From: a virus
Virus record (IMG/VR): IMGVR_UViG_3300025168_000032
Span: 62,001 to 126,000 of that record
Length of the DNA stretch: 64,000 nt
Direction: 5' to 3' (one strand)
Shown: positions 9,298-64,000 of the stretch, piece after piece
How positions within the stretch are numbered: the stretch's first letter is position 1
How the letters are laid out: the number at the start of each line of letters is the position of its first letter
Made by a program: the position numbers and the translations under genes
The notes under the pieces: model-generated
Told to the model about the DNA's origin: nothing
The model's input: only the letters and a program-made list of their open reading frames with translations
Databases searched by the model: none

Positions 9298-9701
9298 TTT
9301 GGCTTACTCTTTTAAAGTATCTTAAGATTACAGCCGTCTTCTGTCGTCAACATTGGCGATGGCTTGTCGCTGTTGTGGCTTTTGTAATCGTTTATACACT
9401 TGGTAAGCAGAGCGCTAATGGCATAATGTTACAGGCCAACCTTGCAAGACAGCAGTATAAAAAAGAGAAAGAAGCGATTGAAAGAGCGCACGAGTTGGAA
9501 ATTAAAAAAAGAGAAGAAGCCGAAAGAAACTACAGCGAAGCAGTAAAGAAGATTGAAGAGAAATATGAAAAAGAAAAAGAGAGTATGACAAAAAGCAAGA
9601 AAGAACAAATTAAAAAATTAGTTAAAAAAGCAGAAAACGATCCAAACGAGATCGATAGAATTTTACAACAAGAATTAGGAATAACCATGGAGGGTAAATG
9701 A
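9294..9701 (+). CDS. i-spanin-like protein (one TM helix plus coiled coil)
   Basis: A 135-residue protein starting at GTG 9294, overlapping the previous stop. One transmembrane helix (WLVAVVAFVIVYTLG, ~23-37) is followed by a long, highly charged coiled coil rich in K and E (~50-120). This is the architecture of Rz-type inner-membrane spanins, which link inner and outer membranes at the end of lysis of Gram-negative hosts. The next two genes encode secreted proteins, one of which could be the outer partner. Assignment is by architecture and position only. Confidence 0.6.
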   Translation: MIWLTLLKYLKITAVFCRQHWRWLVAVVAFVIVYTLGKQSANGIMLQANLARQQYKKEKEAIERAHELEIKKREEAERNYSEAVKKIEEKYEKEKESMTKSKKEQIKKLVKKAENDPNEIDRILQQELGITMEGK

Positions 9702-10861
9702 AATATTTCTTATTAAGCATGTTCTTGATGAACTATGCTAATGCCGATGATATGAGTCAGTCCGAAACCTCATATATAGGCGCTACGATGCTTGAAGGCG
9801 AAGTGGATGTAACTTTTGACGAAGTGAATGCATTTGATGCAGACCAAAATCCAAATGCATACGCATACTTTTCCGGTAATACAATGTATATTGGAAACTC
9901 AGATGAAGCTGGAAACTCCATCAATGCAATCGTTGAATTCTTTTGGTTTCAGTCTTCCATCGATCGCGGTTCCGACTTTTATGTAGCGATTGTTAAGGCT
10001 CGCGGGATACCTGCACAAGACGATGAGCTTTGGGTTACCGATTGGAACGATTGGAGTTGGAGTTCTCCACCAGTACTCTCCGTTGAGGCCCTCACCGATT
10101 TAACCCGTGAAAATGGTGCATTCCGCTGGGATTGGTCAGTGCCTTTTGAGAACTATGGAATTGATGCCTATGGCCAAGTAACCTTTACCAACAGCTACGG
10201 GCTTGGCCTTGATGCTGAGGGTGCTGTAATGGCTCATGGTGAATATCCCATCACGGAAGATGGGAGCGTTAAAGCTGCTGGCAATGTACAAACCAAGGGA
10301 TTTTTAAGCTCAGATTACCGTGTCCAAACCCAATATGAAGTCACTCTTTATGAATGGGATGTATATGTTAATGGTCAGGCTGGAATGATGGCTTGGGATA
10401 CCTATCTCAACTTAGAAGCAAGATCTGAAGAGAGTGTGTATCACGAGTATTTCATGAGTATCCAAGTTGAAGAAGGTCAAACCTTTACCATAGACGAACT
10501 CAACATCTCATCCGCTTTTGATTCTTCTTGGTGGCCTTGGAGTGGCGCTCACGAGATTGGGGTTACTCTTTCAAACATTGAAATTTCAGCCCCATTCTAC
10601 GAAGCTGAAGAAGAAGAAACTTGGACAGAAGAGGAAACGTGGACGGAAGAAGAGCAAGAAGAGTGGGACCCACAAACAGATGAAGAAGAGGAGTCCTCTG
10701 AGGGTACTTACAGTGAAGAGGAGACCGAAGAGCTTTCGCAACTACCACAGCTTAGCCAAGAAGTGACAGATCCAGTAAAGGGTGGGTGCAGTGTCGCACC
10801 GACTCCGTATAGTTTCTTTTTAATCCCGCTTATGGGAATTATTGCAAGGAGAAGAAGATGA
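9698..10861 (+). CDS. Secreted protein with MYXO-CTERM-like C-terminal anchor
   Basis: A 387-residue exported protein. The start (MKYFLLSMFLMNYANA) is a signal peptide, with GGAGGG before the ATG. The body (~18-300) is rich in aromatic and acidic residues with repeating W/Y/D patterns, suggesting a beta-rich domain; I recognise no family. Residues ~300-355 are a Glu/Thr/Ser spacer with repeated TWTEEE. The end is a tripartite tail: GGCS (from ~362), a hydrophobic stretch and RRRR as the last residues. That layout matches C-terminal sorting signals such as MYXO-CTERM, which are cleaved and anchored by host membrane proteases. It shares the MKYFLL start with the next gene, which overlaps as ATGA. 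A role in surface display, superinfection exclusion or lysis is possible. Function unknown. Confidence 0.7.
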   Translation: MKYFLLSMFLMNYANADDMSQSETSYIGATMLEGEVDVTFDEVNAFDADQNPNAYAYFSGNTMYIGNSDEAGNSINAIVEFFWFQSSIDRGSDFYVAIVKARGIPAQDDELWVTDWNDWSWSSPPVLSVEALTDLTRENGAFRWDWSVPFENYGIDAYGQVTFTNSYGLGLDAEGAVMAHGEYPITEDGSVKAAGNVQTKGFLSSDYRVQTQYEVTLYEWDVYVNGQAGMMAWDTYLNLEARSEESVYHEYFMSIQVEEGQTFTIDELNISSAFDSSWWPWSGAHEIGVTLSNIEISAPFYEAEEEETWTEEETWTEEEQEEWDPQTDEEEESSEGTYSEEETEELSQLPQLSQEVTDPVKGGCSVAPTPYSFFLIPLMGIIARRRR

Positions 10862-41845: not shown

Positions 41846-44800
41846 ATGCCTAGAAAATTTGATTTTGTATCGCCCGGTATTTCTATTGAAGAGATTGATG
41901 AGAGTATTATTGAGGCGCCAGTAACTGATGACGGTTTATTAATTATTGGAAGAGCAAAGGCTGGACCAGCCATGCAACCCACCAAGATTAAAAGTTTAAG
42001 AGACTTTGTTGCTGTTTTCGGCGACCCGATTAGTGGTAAAGGAACCGCTAACAATGATGTTTGGAGAGATGGGAATAACCAATCTCCGACATACGGAGCT
42101 TATGCAGCCCAAGCGTGGCTAGCATCAGAAACCTCACCAGTTACCTTTATAAGGCTGCTTGGTCAAGATGCAGATAACCAAGCCAGCGGATATATTAAGG
42201 CTGGTTGGAATCTGGATGGTGCCAATTTAACTGCCGATACCGGTACACATGCAACAAACGTTACCGCATACGGGTTATTTATTATGCCCTCAGCATCAGC
42301 CACAGTAAACGTAACTGGAACATTGGCTGCTGTTATTTATGCAACTGGTGCTGCTGTTACTCTTAGTGGTACAATGGCTGGCGGTCTAAAAAACACCATC
42401 AATTCCTCTGCCACTACATCCTCCGCTGGATGTATGATCGAGTCTATTTCAACAGGTGGCAAAGGAAACACCTTTACGCTTGAAATTAGAGATTCATACA
42501 CCGAGTCTAGCGTTGTTGAGAAGCACGTATTTCATCTTGATCCTGATCAAAAAGATAATTATATTAGAAATGTATTGAACACTAACCCTCTTAAGACTTT
42601 TGCTACGAACTACGGCTCTGCGAATGCAAAGAAGTACTTTTTAGGTGAAACTTATGAAGAGGCAGTTCAGGCATTAGTTTCTGGCTCTACTGCTGGGGCT
42701 CAATACGGTGTAATCCTTCCATTGGTTAGTGGTTCTTCTAACATGGTAACACACCAAGAAGCAGCCACACCAGCCAAGTCTGGTTGGATTATTAACCGAG
42801 ACCCAACACCACAATTGAATTCATCAGCTTTCGATGCCTCTCAATTAAAGAAGCTTTTCCGCGTGGTTTCTCTCCATGATGGAGAATGGTTCCAAGCGAA
42901 TTATTATGTTACTATCGAAGATCTTAAGCTCGGTACTGTTACCAATCCCAATTCCTCTTTCACTCTTAGTGTTAGAAAGACTGGGCAAAATGGAGAACTT
43001 GTAGAGCAATTTTCAAATTGTAACTTAGACGAATCTTCTGATAGTTTTGTCGGAAAGAAAATTGGAGATATGAGTCAAACTTGGAATACTACCAACATGG
43101 TATTTGATATTTCTGGTGATTACATGAACCAATCTGACTATATTAGAATTGAAATGGGTGATGACTGGAAGTCTGGAATCGATGATTCATACATGCTTCC
43201 ATGGGGCTTCTTTGGGCCAGTTAGACCTAAAGGGTTTACTATGTTAGAAGGCTCCACCGGAGTACAGGCTCTTCCTGCTGCCGGAGTAGATCCAGTAGAT
43301 GCTGGTGTTGTTGCTACGGCACAAGTTACATATACTGGTGACCACGTCGATGATGGCGGAAAATTAATATTTAATCACCCTGACGGCTTCGCATACGAAG
43401 TTAGAGCGGCCGCTACTGCTAACTCTACTGCGTGGACATTAACATCAGGAGTCTACGTCTGGACTGTAGATACACAAGATAGTTCCGGAACTGGTAATAA
43501 TCATACAAAGTATGCAGATAAAGTTGCTGAAGCTCTTAATTTAATGGAAGGCTATACTGCCGCAGATAGTGGGGGTGTTGTAACAATTATTGCTGTTGGG
43601 CCCGGGGCTCATTATACATTTACAATGAGTGAGAGTGGTGACGATTCGACCCATCAGGCACTTGGATCTGTAACTGCTGGTACAGACACATCAAACTTGG
43701 CCCATGTATATGTTAAAGGTAATAACAACGTTATTCATTCTGGTGGTGATGCAGCACAATTTGCAAAGATGCCAACCATAATGTCAGCATCGATTCACTT
43801 CCCAAGGCTAAAGCTTACTGAAGAAAGCACCAATAAGGCGTCAGCAAATTATAAAAACACTGACATGTTTGGTGTAAGGCACAAATTTGCTTCTAAGAAT
43901 GAAAAGGGTGTTGCACCTAAGAGAGATTATCTTGATCTTACAAGATTTCAAGGTGGCTCTATGGACGTCCACACAACAGCAAATGCTACAGAATATAGTT
44001 TTGTATTCTCAATGGACGAAATAGCTAGAGACGCAAACGGTCTATACTATTGGGCTTCTGGCTCTCACACAATCGCTATTGGCACTCAAACACGAGCAGT
44101 CACAGCAGGGTCCGGATCTCAACAACTAATCGATGACAAGGTTCGTCAATTTGCTGTACCAATGTTTGGTGGATTTGACGGAGTTGATATCACGAAAGCT
44201 GATCCATTCTCAAGCGCTGTTGCCCTTGCATCTAAAGCAGAATCAACATCTTATGCTTATAATAGTGTATCAAGAGCAATTGATATGTGTAACACCGCAG
44301 AATCAGTTAAATATGATGTGATCTCAATACCGGGCTTAACTAACGAAAGCTTGACTAACGATCTAATCAGAATGGTTGAAGAACGCGCTGATGCTTTGGC
44401 GATCATCGATCTTGATGATGGTTATCTTGAGACATATGAGAACAATGGAACAAGAACTGGTGGTACTCTCGCTTCAGTTAAATCTAATTCTGACAGTAGA
44501 GATTATAATACAAGTTATGCTGCTACATACTTCCCAAGAGTAAGAATGAGAGATTCTCTTTCTGGAAATGGCGATATGGTTATCGCTCCTGCTTCTGTAG
44601 CCGCGATTGGAGCCTTGGCATTCTCAGACTCAGATACTGGTGCTCCATGGTTCGCCCCTGCTGGATTTAACAGAGGTGGACTGTCACAACTTGGTGGACC
44701 TCAAGGTCCAAAAGTTATTGGAGCTTTTAAGCAGCTTTCAAAATCTAACCGAGACGAACTTTACCAAAGAAACATTAACCCTGTTGCTCGATTCCCTGCA

Positions 44801-45169
44801 ATCGGTGAGACCGTTATTTTCGGTCAAAAAACTCTTCAACAAACCAAATCTGCACTTGATAGAATTAACGTTCGCAGATTGATGATCTTCCTTAAGAAGA
44901 GAGTCGGAAGAGTAGCTGAAACTGTATTGTTTGACCAAAATGTTCAAGCAACATGGTCACGCTTCAAAGCTGGTGCTGACTTGATCCTTAGAGACGCTCA
45001 GTCCAGATTGGGAATTACAGAATATCAGCTTGTTTTGGATGAAACAACCACAACAGCAGATTTGGTTGATCAAAACATTTTGTATGCTAAAGTGTTTATC
45101 AAGCCTGCTAGGGCAATCGAATTCATCGCTATCGACTTTATTGTAACGAGAAGCGGAATTGAATTTTAG
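41846..45169 (+). CDS. 18: Tail sheath protein, T4 gp18-like, enlarged
   Basis: A 1107-residue contractile sheath protein. The N-terminus (FDFVSPGISIEEIDESIIEA) and C-terminal core (ATYFPRVRMRD, QTKSALDRINVRRLMIFLKK, TWSRFKAGADLILRDAQSRL, FIAIDFIVTRSGIEF) are clear family signatures. T4 gp18 has 659 residues; the ~450 extra are in the middle (~110-760), rich in Thr/Ser/Gly with strand-like segments (e.g. VTYTGDHVDDGGKLIFNHPD), likely domains on the outer surface of the sheath. AAGGAG precedes the ATG. It polymerises round the tube and contracts on infection. Confidence 0.93.
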   Translation: MPRKFDFVSPGISIEEIDESIIEAPVTDDGLLIIGRAKAGPAMQPTKIKSLRDFVAVFGDPISGKGTANNDVWRDGNNQSPTYGAYAAQAWLASETSPVTFIRLLGQDADNQASGYIKAGWNLDGANLTADTGTHATNVTAYGLFIMPSASATVNVTGTLAAVIYATGAAVTLSGTMAGGLKNTINSSATTSSAGCMIESISTGGKGNTFTLEIRDSYTESSVVEKHVFHLDPDQKDNYIRNVLNTNPLKTFATNYGSANAKKYFLGETYEEAVQALVSGSTAGAQYGVILPLVSGSSNMVTHQEAATPAKSGWIINRDPTPQLNSSAFDASQLKKLFRVVSLHDGEWFQANYYVTIEDLKLGTVTNPNSSFTLSVRKTGQNGELVEQFSNCNLDESSDSFVGKKIGDMSQTWNTTNMVFDISGDYMNQSDYIRIEMGDDWKSGIDDSYMLPWGFFGPVRPKGFTMLEGSTGVQALPAAGVDPVDAGVVATAQVTYTGDHVDDGGKLIFNHPDGFAYEVRAAATANSTAWTLTSGVYVWTVDTQDSSGTGNNHTKYADKVAEALNLMEGYTAADSGGVVTIIAVGPGAHYTFTMSESGDDSTHQALGSVTAGTDTSNLAHVYVKGNNNVIHSGGDAAQFAKMPTIMSASIHFPRLKLTEESTNKASANYKNTDMFGVRHKFASKNEKGVAPKRDYLDLTRFQGGSMDVHTTANATEYSFVFSMDEIARDANGLYYWASGSHTIAIGTQTRAVTAGSGSQQLIDDKVRQFAVPMFGGFDGVDITKADPFSSAVALASKAESTSYAYNSVSRAIDMCNTAESVKYDVISIPGLTNESLTNDLIRMVEERADALAIIDLDDGYLETYENNGTRTGGTLASVKSNSDSRDYNTSYAATYFPRVRMRDSLSGNGDMVIAPASVAAIGALAFSDSDTGAPWFAPAGFNRGGLSQLGGPQGPKVIGAFKQLSKSNRDELYQRNINPVARFPAIGETVIFGQKTLQQTKSALDRINVRRLMIFLKKRVGRVAETVLFDQNVQATWSRFKAGADLILRDAQSRLGITEYQLVLDETTTTADLVDQNILYAKVFIKPARAIEFIAIDFIVTRSGIEF

Positions 45170-45212: not shown

Positions 45213-45779
45213 ATGGCATTTTGGAGTAGCGCAGACGTAGAACCAAAGAGAAATTATAGATGGAAGGTCATCTTAGATGGTTTCGGTGGAAACAACATTC
45301 TTTGGTGGGCGAAGACCGTAACGGTTCCATCATATGATGTTTCCGAAGTCGAACACAATTTTTTTGATAATAAATATTATTATCCCGGACGTGTAAGTTG
45401 GTCAGAGGTCACTTTGACTCTTGTTGATCCTATCTCACCGGATGCTGTTCAGTTGACAAACAAATTGTTAATTGATTCAGGTTATAATATCCCTATGAAT
45501 GGCAATGGCGCGAGTGCAAATCAAAAGGCTACGATATCTAAGGCTAAAGCCACTAATGCTGGTTTTAAAAGTATGTCAATTCATGTTGTAAACGCGGACG
45601 GTCAGGATATAGAAGTTTGGTATCTCAGGAACCCGTTTCTTAAATCAGCTAAATATGGCGATTTGGATTACTCAAGTGACGATCTTAGAACTGTAGAAAT
45701 GGCAATCCGTTATGATTGGGCAGAGTGCGAAATAGGCGGAGCCAGTGGGACCCCAGAAAGACAGTTCAAACGGGTATAG
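45213..45779 (+). CDS. 19: Tail tube protein, T4 gp19-like
   Basis: A 188-residue tube protein: MAFWSSADVEPKRNYRWKVI, NILWWAKTVTVPSYDVSEVE, YYPGRVSWSEVTLTLVDP, and LRTVEMAIRYDWAECE. It follows the sheath gene as in T4 (gp19, 163 residues) and has AGGAG upstream. Hexamers stack to form the inner tube through which DNA passes. It is paralogous to the next gene. Confidence 0.88.
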   Translation: MAFWSSADVEPKRNYRWKVILDGFGGNNILWWAKTVTVPSYDVSEVEHNFFDNKYYYPGRVSWSEVTLTLVDPISPDAVQLTNKLLIDSGYNIPMNGNGASANQKATISKAKATNAGFKSMSIHVVNADGQDIEVWYLRNPFLKSAKYGDLDYSSDDLRTVEMAIRYDWAECEIGGASGTPERQFKRV

Positions 45780-45795: not shown

Positions 45796-46272
45796 ATGAC
45801 CTTTTGGAGTGCTTCCGATTTAGAACCAACACGAAAACATCGCTTCCTCGTTGAACTTGGCGGTGTCGTCTTGTGGTGGGCAAAATCAGTTACCAAACCA
45901 AGCTTTGATATCTCCACGAACAGATACACTGCTATTAATCACTCAATTGAGTATCCGGGAATACTTACTTGGAATGATGTAACTCTCACGATTGTTGATG
46001 TTGGCAAAAAAACTAAAGAATTGTATGATAAACTCGAAGATATGGGGTATAGTGCCCCCGGCTCGACAACAGGCGGATTTGGCGGAATCAAAAAAGGCGA
46101 TAAAAGCGATTTAAAGATTTATCAAATGGATGCTAGCGGAAAAACTATTGAAGAGTGGATTTTAAACAATGTTACAATAAAGACTGTTAATTTTGGAGAT
46201 CTCAGCTACAGTGATGATGAACTGGTTGAGATGTCAATGACTATTGCCTATGATTGGGCAGAATTTAAATAA
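45796..46272 (+). CDS. Second gp19-family tube protein
   Basis: A 158-residue paralogue of the preceding protein: MTFWSASDLEPTRKHRFLVE, VVLWWAKSVTKPSFDIS, IEYPGILTWNDVTLTIVD, VEMSMTIAYDWAEFK. It lacks the longer C-terminal tail and has a Gly-rich loop (GSTTGGFGGIKKGD). In T4 the tube initiator gp54 is a distant gp19 relative; this copy may be a tube initiator or terminal ring rather than the main tube. Which of the two is the major tube cannot be settled from sequence alone. Confidence 0.8.
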   Translation: MTFWSASDLEPTRKHRFLVELGGVVLWWAKSVTKPSFDISTNRYTAINHSIEYPGILTWNDVTLTIVDVGKKTKELYDKLEDMGYSAPGSTTGGFGGIKKGDKSDLKIYQMDASGKTIEEWILNNVTIKTVNFGDLSYSDDELVEMSMTIAYDWAEFK

Positions 46273-55519: not shown

Positions 55520-56746
55520 ATGGCTAGCAAATTTAAAGGAAGAAACTCAATAAAATCGAGTATAAAGTTATATTATGAAAGAAGCAACTTTCACCTTAAT
55601 GCATATAACGATTTTGAAATATCTAACAGTTTAAGAGATTTAACTTTTGGAGAATTCCAAATGTATGGCAGGGTTGATACAAATATGTTACCAGTCGTAC
55701 CTAAAGAGGATTTTTTAGTAAGCGTATCAGCACCACAGGCACAAGAGGAGGCAGTAAGGGTATTCGACTTTGTTTTTGAAGCCTTTCAGAATGTCCAAAG
55801 TGCTTTTAGAAACGCATGTTTGCTTAACAAAGTACCCCAAGACGATCCGTACTTATCGGTAATCAACGCTGTAAAGGGCTACGAAAGTCCAGTGGATTTG
55901 TATTCTCAATATATGGAAGACATGTTAAAGGTCTATGCAGAAACATATATTGTTGCCCAAAACCGAAGAGCAAATATTATTACAATTAATGACTACATGG
56001 GTGAACTTGTAAATTATTTGAAAGTTTTAACATCCACGCTTCCTCTTACATTCTCGTCTTGGCAAAAGACAAATAAATCATCGATTTTTACTTCTGGGCT
56101 AGCCATCAGCATCGCTGATCTAAGTATAGACAATGATGCTGTCAAAGATGTTAATTTTTTATCTAATCCGGCATTCCAATATTACCTAAATGTCTGTAAG
56201 CAAAACGGATTTAATGTATCTAAAAATTCTCCGTGGGTCATATTCGCTGATATAGATTCACAAGTTATGAAACAAAACCATTTGATCCAGAGGCTCATAA
56301 CATCCCCAGCTTCTTTATTTGCTAATAGATTTGATGATGCATATACATTAGATATACAATTATTAGAAGAGGTAATTACAAGAAACTATAATAAATTTGT
56401 ATTATTTTATCCTATAGAAAAAAAATATAGTACATGTAATAATAATAAATTAATATATAATATAATAAATAGAAATAATATTAATAGTATAACAGAATCT
56501 GTTAAGAAGTCAAGGATAATAAGTATTTATGCAAATATGAAAAATATTGAGGAAAATTACATATTTAGAAAAGCTGATCTCAATATTTTAATAAAAAATG
56601 CAAATAACTTTGCCACAAGATTTGACATCCAGAGAGCAATGGGATATATTAACGAAAGATTCCGGCAGACTTTTAAATCTAAGAACGGCGGGATCAACTC
56701 GATCATCAGATCAAATAAAAATTATGAAAATAGACGTGGAGGGTAG
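55520..56746 (+). CDS. Unknown, probably structural, protein with AT-rich 3' part
   Basis: A 408-residue protein, ATG 55520 ten bases after GGAGG. Opening ASKFKGRNSIKSSIKLYYER, then FGEFQMYGRVDTNMLPVVPK, NVQSAFRNACLLNKVP and SIFTSGLAISIADLSIDND; the C-terminal third is rich in Asn/Ile/Lys and its DNA (56390-56500) is extremely AT-rich. It is the last gene of probable structural type and is followed without gap by the polymerase. I do not recognise a family; similar proteins close tail clusters in marine myoviruses (from memory). The 80-base gap before it (55440-55519) holds TTGACA at 55470 but only a poor -10. Confidence 0.5.
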   Translation: MASKFKGRNSIKSSIKLYYERSNFHLNAYNDFEISNSLRDLTFGEFQMYGRVDTNMLPVVPKEDFLVSVSAPQAQEEAVRVFDFVFEAFQNVQSAFRNACLLNKVPQDDPYLSVINAVKGYESPVDLYSQYMEDMLKVYAETYIVAQNRRANIITINDYMGELVNYLKVLTSTLPLTFSSWQKTNKSSIFTSGLAISIADLSIDNDAVKDVNFLSNPAFQYYLNVCKQNGFNVSKNSPWVIFADIDSQVMKQNHLIQRLITSPASLFANRFDDAYTLDIQLLEEVITRNYNKFVLFYPIEKKYSTCNNNKLIYNIINRNNINSITESVKKSRIISIYANMKNIEENYIFRKADLNILIKNANNFATRFDIQRAMGYINERFRQTFKSKNGGINSIIRSNKNYENRRGG

Positions 56747-57937
56747 ATGAACTTTCAAATTCTTGATGATAAAGTAGAATGCTTCGGAGTATATAGCAAT
56801 GGAAAATTTACATATGATAGAATACCTGATAATGTCACAGGAACTTGGCAATGGGATAAGCGGTTTGGTAATCGCGATATTCGTTATGCTAGCATTTATT
56901 CTGGTGGTGAATCCATTTCTAAAGCGGCTCCAGAGCATCTCCGACCAAGATTCGAAAAAAGAGAATCCAAAATCCGATCCTTCATCAACTCAGCATTGAA
57001 TGCGAAGATAAAACTTAGTGAACTTTGTTTATTCGAGGTTATTCCAGAGCAGCATTTGATGCACTATTGTGAAATCAAAAATGAAATATGCGAATGGATC
57101 TTCGAAAATAACCAACAGCCTCAAAATCACGGCTTTATGGTTGATTTACACCAGATGGCTAATGATATATCACGTAACCCTATCTTAGTCGACCAAAATG
57201 CCCTCAGAAAGGCATCCAAAACTGACTTGAAGGCAAATGCGCTGCTTAATTCACTAGGTGGCAAAAACAAGCCTATTTGCTATGATGTTTGGGGATCTAA
57301 GACAGGTAGGCTGACCACCAAACAGGGATCTTTCCCAATAATGAACCTGAAAAAAGAAATTGCGAATTGTGTTGTTCCGAAGAACCATGTTTTCGTTCAA
57401 TTCGACCTTAACGGTGCCGAGATTCGCACCTTTATTTCTCTATCTACGGACACCCATCCCTCTGTAGATATACACACATGGAATATGGAGAATGTACTTG
57501 AGAACGTAACGGAGCGAAACAAGGCTAAGAAGAAGTTTCTCGCTTGGTTCTATAACCCACACTCTGATGTTGTCCAGTCGGAACATTATGATCGCAACCT
57601 TTTGTTAAATAAATATTACAATGGTAACATGGTTTCAACTCCTTTTGGCAGAGAAATAGAGGCTGACGACTTCCATGCTTTGAATTACCTGCTACAATCG
57701 TCATCGTCAGACAATTGCATGACTCAGTGTATTAAGATAAATAAGTTCCTGACTAACAATAAGTCCTTTGTTCATTCGGTTGTGCATGATTCAATTACAA
57801 TTGATCTGGATTTTGCAGATCGAAATCTTCTACCACAAATTCAAGAGTTGTTTGAAGATACGCAATTGGGGTGGTTTAAATCTTCTGTGCAAGTTGGCCA
57901 CAATCTTCGCGATTTAAGGGAGATATCATGGTCTTAA
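56747..57937 (+). CDS. Short family-A DNA polymerase (palm/fingers, no exonuclease)
   Basis: A 396-residue protein whose C-terminal ~220 residues carry family-A polymerase motifs. GSKTGRLTTKQGSFPIMNLK precedes motif A, FDLNGAEIR (D220, matching DYSQIELR). Motif B is RNKAKKKFLAWFY with R257, K261 and Y269 at the spacing of R754, K758 and Y766 of E. coli Pol I; the Pol I F762 position is L265. FGREIEADDFHALNYLLQSS matches the following GRRR/N-x-x-Q-G segment. Motif C is VHDS (H347-D348-S349) instead of VHDE. The N-terminal ~180 residues show no 3'-5' exonuclease motifs and are far too short for a usual family-A enzyme, so proofreading must be separate or absent. It overlaps the tubulin-like gene by 10 bases. 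Confidence 0.85.
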   Translation: MNFQILDDKVECFGVYSNGKFTYDRIPDNVTGTWQWDKRFGNRDIRYASIYSGGESISKAAPEHLRPRFEKRESKIRSFINSALNAKIKLSELCLFEVIPEQHLMHYCEIKNEICEWIFENNQQPQNHGFMVDLHQMANDISRNPILVDQNALRKASKTDLKANALLNSLGGKNKPICYDVWGSKTGRLTTKQGSFPIMNLKKEIANCVVPKNHVFVQFDLNGAEIRTFISLSTDTHPSVDIHTWNMENVLENVTERNKAKKKFLAWFYNPHSDVVQSEHYDRNLLLNKYYNGNMVSTPFGREIEADDFHALNYLLQSSSSDNCMTQCIKINKFLTNNKSFVHSVVHDSITIDLDFADRNLLPQIQELFEDTQLGWFKSSVQVGHNLRDLREISWS

Positions 57938-58740
57938 TAGGATTAGGAACAGCAGGAACTGGTATTGTCAACAGATTTTCCAGCATTCATAAAAAGATAT
58001 GCATAACCGAATCTGATTTTCCATCTAAGTGCATGAAGGAAGAGGATTTTGAAGAATGCTGTCCGAAGTTTAAAAAGAAACTGTCCTTTAAAGAGGACGA
58101 GTGTTGGTTTGTAGTTTGTGGCGGTAGTAAATGTTCGTCTGCGTCTCTTGCGCTTTTAGAGACCATTAAGCATAAAAAGATAAATATTATTTATATATGT
58201 CCGGACCCTAACTTGTCTGGCTCCACAATAATGAGAAGGCACAAAGTGGTGTACAATGTACTACAGGAATATACAAGATCTGGCCTTTTCAATACCATGT
58301 GTTTGATTTCAAATCGAGAAACATTAAAATCTATAGGTGACCAGTCAATAATGGATATGTATTCTAACCTTAACGCGATTATATCAAATACCATTGAAAC
58401 TATAGAATGGTTTAAATCAGAAGAGTCAGTTATGGGCTCACTACATGAAACAAAATCAATTTCAAAAATTTATACAGTTTCAATCGGAAACTTCAGCGAA
58501 GACGAAGAAAACTTACTATTTTTACTTGACAATACTACAGAGACGTGGTATATTTATAGTGTAAGCAAGGAAAACCTAGAAAAAAATAAAGATCTGATTC
58601 CAATTATAAGAAACCGAGTTATTGCTGACGAAGAAAAAAATATTAATTCTTCTTTTGCAATTTATTCATCTGAACATAAACAATCATATTTTTATTCAAT
58701 TAAATTCACACACTATATACAATCCATGGAGGCGAAATGA
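57928..58740 (+). CDS. Divergent tubulin/FtsZ-like protein (candidate)
   Basis: A 270-residue protein overlapping the polymerase end. The first strand and loop, MVLIGLGTAGTGIVNRF, match the nucleotide-binding start of FtsZ/TubZ (I-G-x-G-x-A-G-x-x-x-V-N). Residues ~60-80, FVVCGGSKCSSASLALLETI, sit where FtsZ has its GGGTGTG signature loop followed by a helix, then a strand INIIYICPDPNL like the usual P-F strand, a helix with RRHKVVYNVLQEY, a strand TMCLISNRETLKSI (FtsZ N-D-x-L region) and NLNAIISNTIETI. The signature loop is degenerate, so GTP hydrolysis is uncertain. I recall similar short proteins next to replication genes in cyanophages and other marine T4-like phages, labelled hypothetical. 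A promoter for the next gene lies inside it. Confidence 0.5.
   Translation: MVLIGLGTAGTGIVNRFSSIHKKICITESDFPSKCMKEEDFEECCPKFKKKLSFKEDECWFVVCGGSKCSSASLALLETIKHKKINIIYICPDPNLSGSTIMRRHKVVYNVLQEYTRSGLFNTMCLISNRETLKSIGDQSIMDMYSNLNAIISNTIETIEWFKSEESVMGSLHETKSISKIYTVSIGNFSEDEENLLFLLDNTTETWYIYSVSKENLEKNKDLIPIIRNRVIADEEKNINSSFAIYSSEHKQSYFYSIKFTHYIQSMEAK
58526..58554 (+). promoter_or_regulatory. Sigma70-type promoter TTGACA-17-TATATT
   Basis: TTGACA 58526-58531, 17-base spacer, TATATT 58549-58554, inside the 3' part of the tubulin-like gene and ~180 bases upstream of the 58737 gene. The full consensus -35 and near-consensus -10 make it a good candidate despite the coding location. Confidence 0.55.
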
Positions 58741-59274: not shown

Positions 59275-59526
59275 ATGAGTACATTTACACAATACACCGG
59301 AACATTCGTAAAGCGTAACGGAAACCGTCGAACAATGAGTTTTATCAAGATCACTGATCTTCCAAAAACTATGGTAACCTCGACAAAGGATCGTTATCCA
59401 AAAAGTAATGGTGAAATTGAAGTTGTATATGATACGGAAAGAGATGGTTTCCGTACATTCAATCACGGTACTGTCGTAGGAACCGTTTCATCAAAACCTG
59501 TCAATCGTTCATTTGACAACCAATAA
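59275..59526 (+). CDS. Small conserved phage protein of unknown function
   Basis: An 83-residue protein with CTGGAGG before the ATG. It reads YTGTFVKRNGNRRTMSFIKI, then DLPKT, EVVYDTERDGFRTFNHGTVV. The GTFxKxxGxxRxMxFxK start and FRxFNxxTVxG end mark a family of small proteins common in marine T4-like phages, all strand-rich and without known function. It is flanked by two strong sigma70-type promoters, so it is probably expressed early and abundantly. Confidence 0.7.
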   Translation: MSTFTQYTGTFVKRNGNRRTMSFIKITDLPKTMVTSTKDRYPKSNGEIEVVYDTERDGFRTFNHGTVVGTVSSKPVNRSFDNQ

Positions 59527-59689: not shown

Positions 59690-60466
59690 ATGGCTTTAAA
59701 TATAGAACAAATGAGAGCAAAGCTCGAAGTGTCACGTAACGGTGGCAAAAAACAAGATAACACTAAATGGCGCCCTTCTGAGGGTGATCAAACTGTTCGC
59801 ATCATTCCTACTGATGATGGTGACCCTTTCAAGGAATTTCATTTCCATTATAATGTTGGAAGGAACCCCGGCATTCTTTGCCCCAAACGTAATCATGGGG
59901 AAGACTGTCCAATATGTGATTTCGCCTCAAAGTTGTGGCGACAAGGTGTCGAAGGTAACGACGATACCGCCAAAAGAGAAGCAAAGAAATTATTTGCTCG
60001 AAAGCGCTATTACTCACCGATTATTGTTAGAGGTGAGGAGAGCAAAGGCGTAAGGGTGTGGGCTTATGGCAAAATGGCTTATGAGACTCTACTTTCTTAC
60101 GTTTTAGATCCGGATTATGGTGACATTACTCATGCCGAAACAGGTACTGATGTTGTACTTAACTATGCCATACCCGGAACTCCGGGATCTTTTCCCAAGA
60201 CCACGCTTAAGCCCCGTCGACGGCCATCAGTGTTGTGTGATGAAGACGTAGCTGATTGTGACGAATTATTAAACTCTGTACCTGAGATGGAGACTCTCTT
60301 TCAACGACATTCTACCTCCGAAGTTCAATCGTTGTTGGACGAATACCTATCCTCCGATGAATCCTCCGAGTCTCTCTCAAGCGAAACGGGAAAATATAAT
60401 AAACAAAAAACTGTCGATGATGCATTAAAATCATTTATGAACAACGATACATCAATGGTTCGATAG
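59690..60466 (+). CDS. 32: Single-stranded DNA-binding protein, T4 gp32-like
   Basis: A 258-residue protein (T4 gp32: 301). N-terminal basic segment MALNIEQMRAKLE resembles the cooperative-binding region. The zinc site of the OB domain is visible: H51, C64, C73 and C76 with spacing close to T4 gp32 (H64, C77, C87, C90). Further matches are KWRPSEGDQTVRIIPT, KRYYSPIIVRGEES, and GTDVVLNY. The C-terminus has a Ser/Glu/Asp-rich tail for partner contacts and a basic end. AAAGGA precedes the ATG. It coats single strands during replication and recombination and is expected to work with UvsX, gp41 and the primase here. Confidence 0.9.
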   Translation: MALNIEQMRAKLEVSRNGGKKQDNTKWRPSEGDQTVRIIPTDDGDPFKEFHFHYNVGRNPGILCPKRNHGEDCPICDFASKLWRQGVEGNDDTAKREAKKLFARKRYYSPIIVRGEESKGVRVWAYGKMAYETLLSYVLDPDYGDITHAETGTDVVLNYAIPGTPGSFPKTTLKPRRRPSVLCDEDVADCDELLNSVPEMETLFQRHSTSEVQSLLDEYLSSDESSESLSSETGKYNKQKTVDDALKSFMNNDTSMVR

Positions 60467-60657: not shown

Positions 60658-61746
60658 ATGGGAAAGGTGATCGAAATGACTGAACACACAGGAAAAATTA
60701 ACGTTGGCGACTTAGCCAAGAAAATAAATAAGAAATTGGGCATCAAAGTTGCCCACGATTTGAATGAATCTAACCCAGTCTCTGTTAAAGATTGGATTCC
60801 AACTGGGTCTCGTTGGCTTGACTGTTCAATTAAGCCCGGAGAATACGCTGGTATCCCTGTCGGTAAAATCACAGAACTTGCTGGTTTATCTGGGGCTGGC
60901 AAGTCCTTTATGGCTGCTCAGATCGCAGGCAACGCTCAAAAGAAAGGTATGTTTGTCGTATATTTTGATGCAGAATCAGCGATAGATGAGGACTTTTTGG
61001 TGAAGGCTGGGTGCACCAAGGATCAATTGTTATATCAACAAGCAGTCTCAGTCGAAAAAACATTAGAAACGATGGAATATGTAATGGGCGAGTATAGTGA
61101 TGCAAGAGTTCTGTTTATTTGGGATTCTATTGCTGCAACCCCATCTGAAAAAGACCTTGAAGGAGATTATAACCCTCAATCTTCAATGGCTGTGAAGCCA
61201 AGAATTTTTTCCAAGGCATTTCCCAAACTTACGATCCCATTGGCGAATACTGAATCAACACTATTGTTGATTAATCAGTTAAAGACAAACATCTCTTCAC
61301 GACCAGCAGAGATGCTTATGGAGCCGTATATAGCTCCGGGTGGAAAAGCTATTGAGTACTTTTCCTCTTTGCGTATTTGGCTTACAAAGAGAAGAGCAAA
61401 AGCGTCATTTGCACTTGACGATGATGGCGTAAGAGTCGGGTCTCACGTCAAGGCCTTCATAAAGAAATCCAGAATGGGATCAGAAGGAAGGGTATGTGAG
61501 TTCAAGATAATGTGGGGAGGTCCAAAGGTTAGAATACAAGATGAAGAGTCTTGGCTAGACGTCCTTAAAGTTTCAAAACACCCCAATTTCACGCTCTCTG
61601 GGGCGTGGTACACAATGGTAGGGAAAGATGGAAAAGGTGTTAAATTTCAATCAAAACAGTGGCTTACTAAGCTAAAAGAAGAGAGTTTTAGGGAGACTGT
61701 TATTTCTTTAATGGATGAAGTTCTGATAGAGAAATATAAGTCGTAG
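60658..61746 (+). CDS. uvsX: UvsX-like RecA recombinase
   Basis: A 362-residue recombinase (T4 UvsX: 391). Walker A GLSGAGKS (~78-85), followed by VYFDAESAID; Walker B VLFIWDSIAA; DNA-binding L1/L2-type regions around ANTESTLLLINQLKTN and APGGKAIEYFSSLRIWLTK. C-terminal helices finish the domain. AAAGGAG precedes ATG 60658. It forms filaments on gp32-freed single strands and drives strand invasion; it would use ends made by the SbcDC fusion. A terminator follows. Confidence 0.93.
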   Translation: MGKVIEMTEHTGKINVGDLAKKINKKLGIKVAHDLNESNPVSVKDWIPTGSRWLDCSIKPGEYAGIPVGKITELAGLSGAGKSFMAAQIAGNAQKKGMFVVYFDAESAIDEDFLVKAGCTKDQLLYQQAVSVEKTLETMEYVMGEYSDARVLFIWDSIAATPSEKDLEGDYNPQSSMAVKPRIFSKAFPKLTIPLANTESTLLLINQLKTNISSRPAEMLMEPYIAPGGKAIEYFSSLRIWLTKRRAKASFALDDDGVRVGSHVKAFIKKSRMGSEGRVCEFKIMWGGPKVRIQDEESWLDVLKVSKHPNFTLSGAWYTMVGKDGKGVKFQSKQWLTKLKEESFRETVISLMDEVLIEKYKS

Positions 61747-61803: not shown

Positions 61804-61832
61804 TTGACAAACATATGTGTATGGGTTACATT
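61804..61832 (+). promoter_or_regulatory. Sigma70-type promoter TTGACA-17-TACATT
   Basis: TTGACA 61804-61809, 17-base spacer, TACATT 61827-61832; immediately after the uvsX terminator and 20 bases before ATG 61853. Confidence 0.78.
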
Positions 61833-61852
61833 ACTTAAACATCGGAGGAAAT

Positions 61853-62284
61853 ATGAGTTATAGAGATTCATCAAACCAATCAGGGGACATCAGCGAAATA
61901 ACAATTAAGCTTGATTTAATTAAGAAAGGATATGTGGTCTTAGAACCATCTTCTAGAGATTGTGTATATGACCTTGTTGTGGACATGGACGGAACCTTTG
62001 AGACAGTTCAGTGCAAAACAATGCAAAATAACAGCATAACAAAGATCGTAGATCGATCAAATGAGGTTGTGTGCGCTGGCGGCAAAACAAGAAACTCATT
62101 GGACTATGCCGAGCATGGTGTTAATTGGCTAGTTGGTTGCCGCAAGGAGACAGCCGAAACATATTATTACAAACTTAAAACGTATGCTGCGATTCCGGGA
62201 AAATCGTTTAGTGTTCTGAAGAATCCACAAGACGGCTTTCCAAGTCGTGTAGTGCCAAATAGACACGCAAGGGGGAATAAATAA
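61853..62284 (+). CDS. PD-(D/E)XK endonuclease-like protein
   Basis: A 143-residue protein, ATG 61853 after CGGAGG. The nuclease core is visible: E15 in SGDISEITIKLDLIKKGYVV, D40 in DCVYDLVVDMDG, and Q53-C-K55 in TFETVQCKTMQ, a QxK variant of the E-x-K motif found in some homing endonucleases and Holliday-junction resolvases of this fold. A third conserved area is YAEHGVNWLVGCRK. It has its own promoter between uvsX and RNase H and overlaps the RNase H ATG by one base. A recombination nuclease or resolvase is most likely; a former homing endonuclease is possible. Confidence 0.72.
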   Translation: MSYRDSSNQSGDISEITIKLDLIKKGYVVLEPSSRDCVYDLVVDMDGTFETVQCKTMQNNSITKIVDRSNEVVCAGGKTRNSLDYAEHGVNWLVGCRKETAETYYYKLKTYAAIPGKSFSVLKNPQDGFPSRVVPNRHARGNK

Positions 62285-63267
62285 TGTTAAAACTTGAAGT
62301 AAAAAGAAGTGACAAAAAGAGAGTATTAATAATTGATGCTCTCAACATGTTCTTAAGAAGCTACACGATCATTCCAAGTATGAACCCCAAGGGCCTTCCC
62401 AACGGAGGTACAGTTGGGTTTATAAAATCGTTGCAAAAACTTTGTCGTGACTTTCGTCCAAGTGAAGTCGTTATTTGTTGGGATGGACATGGCGGTTCGG
62501 AAAAAAAGAGACAACTTAATAAGGAATACAAACAAGGTAGACGACCTGTGCGTTTCAACCGCAGAATGATTGAACTCCCAGAAGAAGATGTTTACAAAAA
62601 CAGAAGAGATCAGCAACTAAGACTACATGAATATTTGAATGAGATGCCTGTTGTACAGTTGCAGCTTGATTATGTTGAAGCTGATGACATCATAGCGTAT
62701 GTTGACACAAGAAGCAAGTATAAAGGCTGGGATAAAATAATAGTATCCTCTGATAAAGACTTTTATCAACTATGTGAGGATGACCAAACATATATATGGA
62801 GACCCATTCAAAAAGAATTGATAAGTCAAAAACAACTAGTCTACAAGTTTGGAGTACACCCGGCTAACTTTGCACTGGTCAGGGCTATTGAAGGAGACTC
62901 ATCAGATAACCTCAAGGGCGTACCAAGAATAGGTATGAAAACTGTTGTTAAATATTTTCCTTTTGTCGATAAACCACAGAAGATCTCTTGTTCAGAAATA
63001 TTCACACACTGTCAAATGGAAAAAAACAAGAAATCTGTTCACAATAAGTTGCTAGAACACAAAGAACTTGTTAAGAATAACTATACTATTATGCAGTTAT
63101 ACGATCCAAATATTTCTCTACAAGGTAAGCAACAGATTGATTATACTTTATCTAATTATAAGCCCCTGTTTAGTAAGATAAACGTTAGTAAAATGCTTAT
63201 GGAAGATGGACAAGGATCGTTGAACTTGACTGACATGTGGGTTGCTTTTAGGAAAATTGTACAGTAG
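62284..63267 (+). CDS. rnh: 5'-3' exonuclease/RNase H, T4 Rnh-like (FEN family)
   Basis: A 327-residue protein (T4 RNase H: 305). Metal-binding motifs of the FEN family are present: D18 in LIIDALNMF, D in VICWDGHGGSEKKRQLNKEY, VEADDIIAYV, IVSSDKDFYQL, and the helix-hairpin-helix type segment EGDSSDNLKGVPRIGMKT. It would remove RNA primers from Okazaki fragments with gp32 and the polymerase. Transcribed from the promoter at 61804 with the nuclease before it; CGGAGG for the next gene follows. Confidence 0.9.
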   Translation: MLKLEVKRSDKKRVLIIDALNMFLRSYTIIPSMNPKGLPNGGTVGFIKSLQKLCRDFRPSEVVICWDGHGGSEKKRQLNKEYKQGRRPVRFNRRMIELPEEDVYKNRRDQQLRLHEYLNEMPVVQLQLDYVEADDIIAYVDTRSKYKGWDKIIVSSDKDFYQLCEDDQTYIWRPIQKELISQKQLVYKFGVHPANFALVRAIEGDSSDNLKGVPRIGMKTVVKYFPFVDKPQKISCSEIFTHCQMEKNKKSVHNKLLEHKELVKNNYTIMQLYDPNISLQGKQQIDYTLSNYKPLFSKINVSKMLMEDGQGSLNLTDMWVAFRKIVQ

Positions 63268-63290: not shown

Positions 63291-64000
63291 ATGGAATTAA
63301 AACATGAAACTTTTCAAAGGTTTGGAAAGACATTTCAAGAGAACTTGTGCCACCTGATGCTTCAGGATAGGACATTTTGTGATCAGATATGCGAAGTACT
63401 CGACGTAGAATATTTACAGTACGAACACCTTAAAGTATTCGCGAATATGTTAATAGAGTACAGAGCCAAATATAGACAGCACCCAAGCTATGAGATTATG
63501 GCGACCAATATAACCTCTGGCTTAGGGTCATACACAGATGCACTACAGAAGCAAATAAGACAGTTTTATGCTAAAGTTATTAACTCTCACGAGATCGATG
63601 GATCTGATTTCATTAAAGAACATGCCATTGATTTTTGCCGTAAGCAGGTACTTAAAAAAGCGATGATTCAGTCTGTTAAGCTTCTTAAGTCGTCTTCATT
63701 CGAGGAAATTGCTACTGTTATTGAAGATGCAATGAAGCTTGGTACGAACGTTGATTTTGGACATGATTATCATATGGATATCGACGATCGCTTCAGACTT
63801 AAATCCAGAAACCCAGTGTCGACAGGGTGGAAGAGAGTTGACGAGGTTTGTCAGGGTGGTCTTGGTAAATCAGAGCTTGGTGTTGCCATAGCTCCAACTG
63901 GCGCTGGAAAGAGTATGCTTATGGTGCATCTTGGGGCAACGGCCCTAAAGGAGGGTAAAACTGTTGTCTATTACACTCTAGAATTGGCAGACACGGTAGT
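63291..64000 (+). CDS. 41: Replicative DNA helicase, T4 gp41-like (cut by window end)
   Basis: Open frame from ATG 63291 (GGAGGATG at 63281-63288) to the window end, 236 codons without a stop. The N-terminal helical part is DnaB-like; then SRNPVSTGWKRVDEVCQGGL followed by Walker A APTGAGKSM (residues ~203-211) and VVYYTLELAD, as in T4 gp41 and DnaB. The rest of the RecA-type ATPase lies outside. It unwinds the fork and recruits the primase at 4245. Confidence 0.88.
   Translation, partial: MELKHETFQRFGKTFQENLCHLMLQDRTFCDQICEVLDVEYLQYEHLKVFANMLIEYRAKYRQHPSYEIMATNITSGLGSYTDALQKQIRQFYAKVINSHEIDGSDFIKEHAIDFCRKQVLKKAMIQSVKLLKSSSFEEIATVIEDAMKLGTNVDFGHDYHMDIDDRFRLKSRNPVSTGWKRVDEVCQGGLGKSELGVAIAPTGAGKSMLMVHLGATALKEGKTVVYYTLELADTV

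Follow-up and report, generated by a model that had tools for sequence, protein, structure and literature searches.

A trimmed tubulin-superfamily protein encoded beside a compact family A DNA polymerase in uncultivated T4-like myoviruses

Introduction

Why would a phage keep a degenerate relative of tubulin next to its DNA polymerase? The question is raised by a 270-residue protein encoded in a 64,000-nucleotide stretch of viral DNA (hereafter the window), which covers positions 62,001 to 126,000 of the 185,652-base IMG/VR record IMGVR_UViG_3300025168_000032. The source is a large uncultivated, probably aquatic virus of bacteria; its lineage is a large group of T4-like myoviruses, likewise uncultivated. 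An original prediction, made by eye from the DNA alone, had read the gene at window positions 57928–58740 as a divergent tubulin/FtsZ-like protein with an altered glycine loop, set in a T4-like replication cluster. As of 2010, the tubulin/FtsZ superfamily was characterized as comprising filament-forming GTPases (PMC2875224), and two further sources describe the known phage tubulins, PhuZ and TubZ, in the same way (PMC3678025, PMC7824862). Here, we examine the fold, anatomy, and genomic associations of this protein, which we call the trimmed tubulin. It represents a new, degenerate family within a known superfamily; what is unusual about it is the link to a polymerase.

The window protein belongs to the tubulin superfamily

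The open reading frame (ORF) is intact, starts with ATG, and lies on the forward strand, at the place and with the length first read. An AlphaFold2 model built from the window protein and 35 relatives reached a predicted local distance difference test score (pLDDT) of 92.7 and a predicted template modeling score (pTM) of 0.91. In a fold search against the PDB, the best 50 matches were all FtsZ (E 1e-11 to 3e-10) and spanned both domains, with template modeling scores (by query) of 0.62–0.70 over ~313 alignment columns. Against a viral library, the best matches were a phage protein named FtsZ (E 7e-11), another cell-division protein, and, in third place, Noxifer PhuZ (E 5e-6), with a phage tubulin also among the top six. 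The tubulin/FtsZ-like character proposed by eye is thus borne out over both domains.

Profile comparison points the same way. When the 115-row family alignment was compared by hhalign with a canonical TubZ-like protein encoded by sister phages, residues 2–250 aligned with residues 34–349 of the partner at a probability of 95.8% and an E-value of 7e-9, all hhalign E-values being those for a single comparison. The partner (of a 377-amino-acid type) itself exceeds the Pfam cut-offs for both Tubulin (PF00091) and TubZ-like_C (PF22453). The profile of the trimmed family matched the TubZ-like protein at T6–H7 in 10 records (E 4e-7 to 5e-6), and reverse searches with canonical tubulin reached the trimmed genes. 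Because the profile match with the sister-phage canonical tubulin is nearly full-length, we regard homology as settled and membership of the superfamily as virtually certain; judged by profile, the phage TubZ-like proteins appear to be the nearest relatives. This TubZ-like phage tubulin was the best profile–profile partner found, and neither a fold other than tubulin nor an unrelated family emerged.

Single-sequence searches are far less informative. The window protein matched nothing in Pfam (at curated cut-offs), PHROGs, PDB sequences, or 50,697 phage records, and direct searches with two of its relatives against Pfam, PHROGs, PDB sequences, and phage isolates yielded nothing useful. It did not reach the curated cut-off of PF00091, for which the best family member scored an E-value of 0.01, and the trimmed family did not match Tubulin_2 (PF13809). 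An hhalign comparison with phiKZ PhuZ alone was weak, and Pfam matches to Tubulin and to TrkA_N were scattered, weak, and located mostly on the first glycine loop. The fit of this T1 loop to TrkA_N could suggest that the protein has no relation to tubulin and is instead an ordinary Rossmann protein whose GxGxxG loop binds NAD or another dinucleotide. We consider this reading largely refuted and most improbable: the TrkA_N matches cover only the first ~30 residues, as against a two-domain FtsZ fold recovered in all of the top 50 matches and a near full-length TubZ-like profile match that includes T6–H7.

The first search recovered the trimmed tubulin on 46 viral contigs, and later scans added more; the family now comprises at least 136 distinct (non-redundant) phage clusters, with more than 100 relatives at 27–96% identity. 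Between the window gene and its closest relatives, the ratio of nonsynonymous to synonymous substitution rates (dN/dS) is ~0.13, indicating purifying selection. Given these relatives, this selection, and the confident FtsZ-like model, the gene is not a chance ORF. None of the 50,697 phage records contained the lineage, leaving it without an isolate relative among them, and a genome scan with the family for a cellular origin returned no cellular copy. We found no description of the family in the open-licence literature, and neither "FtsZ" nor "tubulin" occurs in the papers on uncultivated Far-T4 phages and virioplankton family A polymerases.

Retained and missing structural elements

Along the sequence, T1, the T4 position, T5, T6, and H7 follow in the FtsZ order that had been read by eye, and all the motifs quoted in support of that reading are present at positions that agree with it (Table 1). 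Strand S1 is kept alongside T1. The GxGxxGxN pattern of T1 is fitted at its last position by N12 in 51% of members, with the window protein carrying G at residue 12. At T5, residues 91–94 read C-P-D-P; the T6 stretch is N129-RETLKSI, and NLNAIISNTI (residues 147–156) lies within H7.

The description of the protein as degenerate proved apt in three respects, with the caveat that speaking of "loss" presumes the canonical state to be ancestral. First, the T4 signature (GGGTGTG or [SAG]GGTG[SAT]G) is absent from both the window protein and the family consensus, which at this position is G-S/A-G-K-V-S-G. Second, the T3 loop, which contacts the gamma-phosphate, is represented by a gap opposite FtsZ GAGANPEVG, in a short S2-to-S4 stretch of ~31 residues. 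Third, T7 and H8 are missing: the loop that follows H7 has 16 residues, no helix is predicted between H7 and S7, and no catalytic acid is conserved at the positions aligned with T7. As regards conservation of the two loops first highlighted, the T1 glycines are retained in 95–100% of members and G65 at the T4 position in 100%, but the T4 signature itself is gone family-wide.

Conserved positions specific to the family are E39, Y41, E/D42, Q113, R117, and S118. Conservation at the end of H5 was scored in a sample that had been drawn largely without using the YNVLQEY-type motif as a criterion. In this polymerase-based sample, only Q113 and R117 of the VYNVLQEY region were invariant, with L112, Y115, and S118 near-invariant. 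The first 35 relatives all carried VYNVLQEY unchanged, but we discount this as ascertainment bias, since that string had been the search pattern.

Because the T7/H8 element that completes the active site of the neighboring subunit is gone, hydrolysis would be weak or absent, and canonical GTPase cycling has probably been lost. These features also bear on whether the protein forms a PhuZ/TubZ-style cytoskeletal filament that centers or segregates phage DNA, polymerizing without the usual T7/H8 contact. Its closest profile relative is TubZ-like, most members retain T1, T6, and H7, and a DNA-positioning protein would suit a replication cluster. However, the T7 motif and H8, which provide the longitudinal contact and hydrolysis in FtsZ and TubZ, are absent, the C-terminal domain is short, and nearby members of the lineage already have a canonical tubulin for such a role, so that we rate a filament as unlikely.

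Guanine-pocket residues kept by most members

The T6 and H7 positions, which hold the guanine base in FtsZ and tubulin, retain N129 in 89% and N149 in 92% of members, and residue 145 is mostly Y/F. Among 91 non-redundant sequences, both asparagines were kept in 81 and both lost in seven; N129 alone was lost in three and N149 alone in none. On a tree inferred without the pocket columns, loss of N129 falls at three places (L042/L043, L131, and the L030–L044 clade), with N149 lost in each. From these alignment patterns, the pocket behaves like a single functional unit, retained by most members and given up in some lineages. Nucleotide binding is rather likely in most members, where a bound guanine nucleotide would stabilize or gate the protein. 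Constant in all members are the fold-defining residues, the T1 glycines, Q113, R117, and the position of the gene. As these persist despite loss of the pocket, the function common to the family probably does not need nucleotide cycling.

An obligate partner gene of a compact polymerase

Against bias, we sampled the linkage by polymerase rather than by tubulin. The first polymerase sample yielded 78 new loci, of which 75 have the trimmed tubulin; the remaining three lie on contigs that stop <300 bases from the polymerase. In a second sample, centered on a divergent polymerase and having some contigs in common with the first, the trimmed tubulin was present at 75 of 77, with the other two contigs ending at the polymerase. 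Every locus with enough flank therefore carries both genes (75/75 and 75/75). Among the 136 clusters, we found neither a flanked polymerase without a trimmed tubulin nor the converse. The two genes overlap in 77 of 133 non-redundant pairs, most often by 4 nucleotides (nt), and the order polymerase–tubulin–single-strand DNA-binding protein (SSB) holds in all 127 clusters that show all three (of 136 non-redundant). The trimmed tubulin is thus an obligate partner gene of the compact family A polymerase. No TubR/TubY or phage-nucleus genes were recognized among the neighbors with Pfam and PHROGs.

The description of the surroundings as a T4-like replication cluster holds for the gp32-type SSB, UvsX, and helicase; the polymerase, however, is of family A (PolA-type) and not the family B enzyme of T4. 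It gives a partial Pfam family A match, best over residues 305–355, carries HDS/HDN in motif C instead of the usual HDE, and contains no recognized 3'-5' exonuclease domain within its 396 residues. Where a locus reaches far enough upstream, a fast-evolving 408-residue protein of no known family almost always precedes the polymerase. The phage lineage is large, since polymerase scans place relatives on more than 550 viral contigs among the matches listed. The sole cellular-record locus from the polymerase scan, L140 (CP070664.1, 2244040–2261227), is a phage-lineage piece inside a WOR-3 metagenome-assembled genome "chromosome". It was rejected as host evidence because the runs of N flanking it on both sides make it look, probably, like a scaffolding artefact.

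The fixed gene order also bears on the idea that the protein is a decoy against host division, one that caps host FtsZ or co-assembles with it: a subunit that has a nucleotide-side face and lacks a T7 face would poison one filament end. Small phage proteins that inhibit FtsZ are known, and the FtsZ fold here retains exactly the nucleotide-side half of the longitudinal interface. Yet the gene sits in a fixed place between polymerase and SSB, whereas genes for host takeover usually vary and lie in early regions; the gene is also kept in several lineages that have lost the pocket. We judge the decoy a little less plausible still than a filament.

A second, canonical tubulin in sister phages

A search of sister-phage records with the Pfam Tubulin model uncovered, in some, a second, canonical tubulin of 377 or 340 amino acids (aa) upstream of the terminase (L141, L142, and loci L147–L306). 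More than 260 contigs encode its relatives. Both subtypes exceed the Pfam Tubulin cut-off and the 377-aa type alone that of TubZ-like_C; a single-sequence structure model of the canonical tubulin was uninformative (pLDDT 47). All nine canonical-tubulin records of ≥130 kilobases (kb) tested also have the trimmed tubulin, and such phages encode two tubulin-fold proteins. No canonical tubulin was detectable in the window's own 185.6-kb record or in a 184-kb relative, both of which keep the trimmed gene.

The co-occurrence in all nine records, together with the homology between the two proteins, could indicate a two-component filament in which the trimmed tubulin pairs with the canonical one of the same phage. 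The two genes lie far apart, however, and the trimmed gene is kept in the two records just named; because the window's own record is one of them, we rate dependence on a canonical tubulin lower, and the partner hypothesis as improbable.

At the site of the sister phages' canonical tubulin, the window has instead a 387-aa ORF (9698–10861) with a signal-peptide-like start, an acidic repeat, a C-terminal hydrophobic-plus-arginine tail, and no Pfam match.

Comparison with known members of the superfamily

The canonical TubZ-like tubulin of the same phage lineage shares with the trimmed protein the order T1, T6, H7 and is homologous to its residues 2–250. It differs in its length of 377 aa, its glycine-rich T4 (GVSGGSGGG), and a DxxD block after H7, and it adjoins the terminase, whereas the trimmed tubulin adjoins the polymerase. 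With FtsZ, the division GTPase of bacteria and archaea, the trimmed tubulin has the two-domain fold in common, but at 9–14% identity; it lacks GGGTGTG, T3, and NxDxxD/H8, and is not a cell gene. The PhuZ/TubZ proteins of phiKZ-like jumbo phages are likewise phage-encoded tubulin folds with a similar T1. PhuZ, however, has 327 aa, and that of phiKZ retains a GGASGST-type T4 loop, whereas the trimmed tubulin is shorter and lies in a replication operon; PhuZ is described in PMC3678025 as building protofilaments and as a protein believed to center virions. Also superfamily members in prokaryotes and phages are Tubulin_2 (PF13809) and the tubulin-like protein of Bacillus phage G, which are canonical or larger and show no polymerase linkage here.

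A further comparison is with FtsZl1 (Makarova and Koonin 2010), a divergent branch of the superfamily that has lost filament-related elements, has no recognizable T6–H7, and adjoins vWA-domain genes in cells (PMC2875224). The two differ in what is gone: FtsZl1 lost T6–H7, the elements that the trimmed tubulin keeps best, while the trimmed tubulin lost T3/T7/H8.

Proposed role in replication

With the fold, the homology, the missing T3 loop, T4 signature, and T7/H8, the pocket retained in most members, and the fixed gene order all established computationally, we lean modestly toward a pseudo-GTPase of the tubulin superfamily that has been co-opted to act as a scaffold or regulator associated with the replisome. 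The trimmed tubulin would be made together with the polymerase and would be a small scaffold or regulatory subunit at the replication fork or site, acting through the family-specific Q113, R117, S118, E39, and Y41 rather than through GTP-driven treadmilling. A replication-associated role as such is reasonably likely; direct binding to the polymerase is a tentative suggestion that we hold with some doubt. Comparably speculative is the boldest version, an obligate replisome component without a GTPase cycle, co-translated with the minimal family A polymerase and associated with it as a scaffold or as a regulator gated by guanine nucleotide.

Several observations weigh against this account. Linkage is no proof of contact with the polymerase, as SSB and UvsX are linked too. 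An acidic residue stands at position 174 or 177 in 82 of 91 representatives and may be a remnant of the catalytic acid. At the level of homology, the hhalign match to an alignment of ten FtsZ sequences alone was weak (probability 6%); in Pfam, TrkA_N (NAD-type Rossmann) equals or outscores Tubulin for some members, although in the T1 motif only; and the best PDB profile match was KtrA (E 0.0014).

If the boldest version is correct, the trimmed tubulin would be, by the literature searched, the first replisome part built from a tubulin fold. A whole phage lineage keeps a tubulin relative that is without the parts for filaments and hydrolysis and is always beside a DNA polymerase, and this allows a clear-cut test of a possible role for the fold beyond the cytoskeleton. 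The more than 100 diverse sequences, some branches of which are without the guanine pocket, are a resource in themselves, and the survey identifies a core gene with testable partners for a large group of uncultivated phages.

Features of the locus

Table 1. Coordinates of the trimmed tubulin gene, its elements, its neighbors, and the canonical tubulins of sister phages (window positions unless a locus is named)
Feature	Position	Strand	Basis or remark
Conserved 408-aa protein of unknown function, upstream of polymerase	55520..56746	+	Neighbor comparison
Compact family A DNA polymerase, 396 aa	56747..57937	+	3' end overlaps trimmed tubulin gene by 10 nt
AAGGGAG, likely ribosome binding site within polymerase gene	57916..57922	+	Read from sequence
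Trimmed tubulin/FtsZ-fold protein gene, 270 aa	57928..58740	+	Stop codon within coordinates; ORF, model and FtsZ match, hhalign
T1 loop and H1 start, residues 4-13, IGLGTAGTGI	57937..57966	+	G5, G7, G10 conserved in 97/100/95%
T4 position, residues 64-73, CGGSKCSSAS, in place of FtsZ GGGTGTG	58117..58146	+	G65 conserved in 100%
T5 position, residues 91-99, CPDPNLSGS	58198..58224	+	P92 95%, D93 82%
H5 end, residues 109-118, YNVLQEYTRS	58252..58281	+	Q113, R117 invariant, family-specific
T6 asparagine N129, guanine-pocket position	58312..58314	+	Alignment, tree
H7 core helix, residues 141-164, with pocket residues Y145, N149	58348..58419	+	Model, alignment
Loop, residues 165-180, replacing T7 and H8	58420..58467	+	No NxDxxD; no helix predicted
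Reduced C-terminal domain: strands 181-188, 205-213, 240-248, 254-261; helix 223-236	58468..58710	+	Model
83-aa WYL_2/Sm-like protein, often next downstream	59275..59526	+	Sub-threshold Pfam match
gp32-type SSB	59690..60466	+	
UvsX/RecA recombinase	60658..61746	+	
PD-(D/E)XK nuclease	61817..62284	+	
5'-3' exonuclease	62284..63267	+	
DnaB-like replicative helicase, gene start only	63291..64000	+	Continues beyond window
Canonical TubZ-like tubulin, 377 aa	L141:3974-5107	-	Pfam Tubulin and TubZ-like_C
Canonical tubulin	L142:7191-8213	-	Just upstream of terminase

Elsewhere in the window, the tail sheath protein (41846–45169) has 1107 aa, of which only the C-terminal third matches known sheaths well; it therefore contains a large N-terminal or inserted region. 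Two adjacent, similar-looking small proteins (45213–45779 and 45796–46272), each with an FWSxxDxEP start, are possibly duplicated tail tube proteins.
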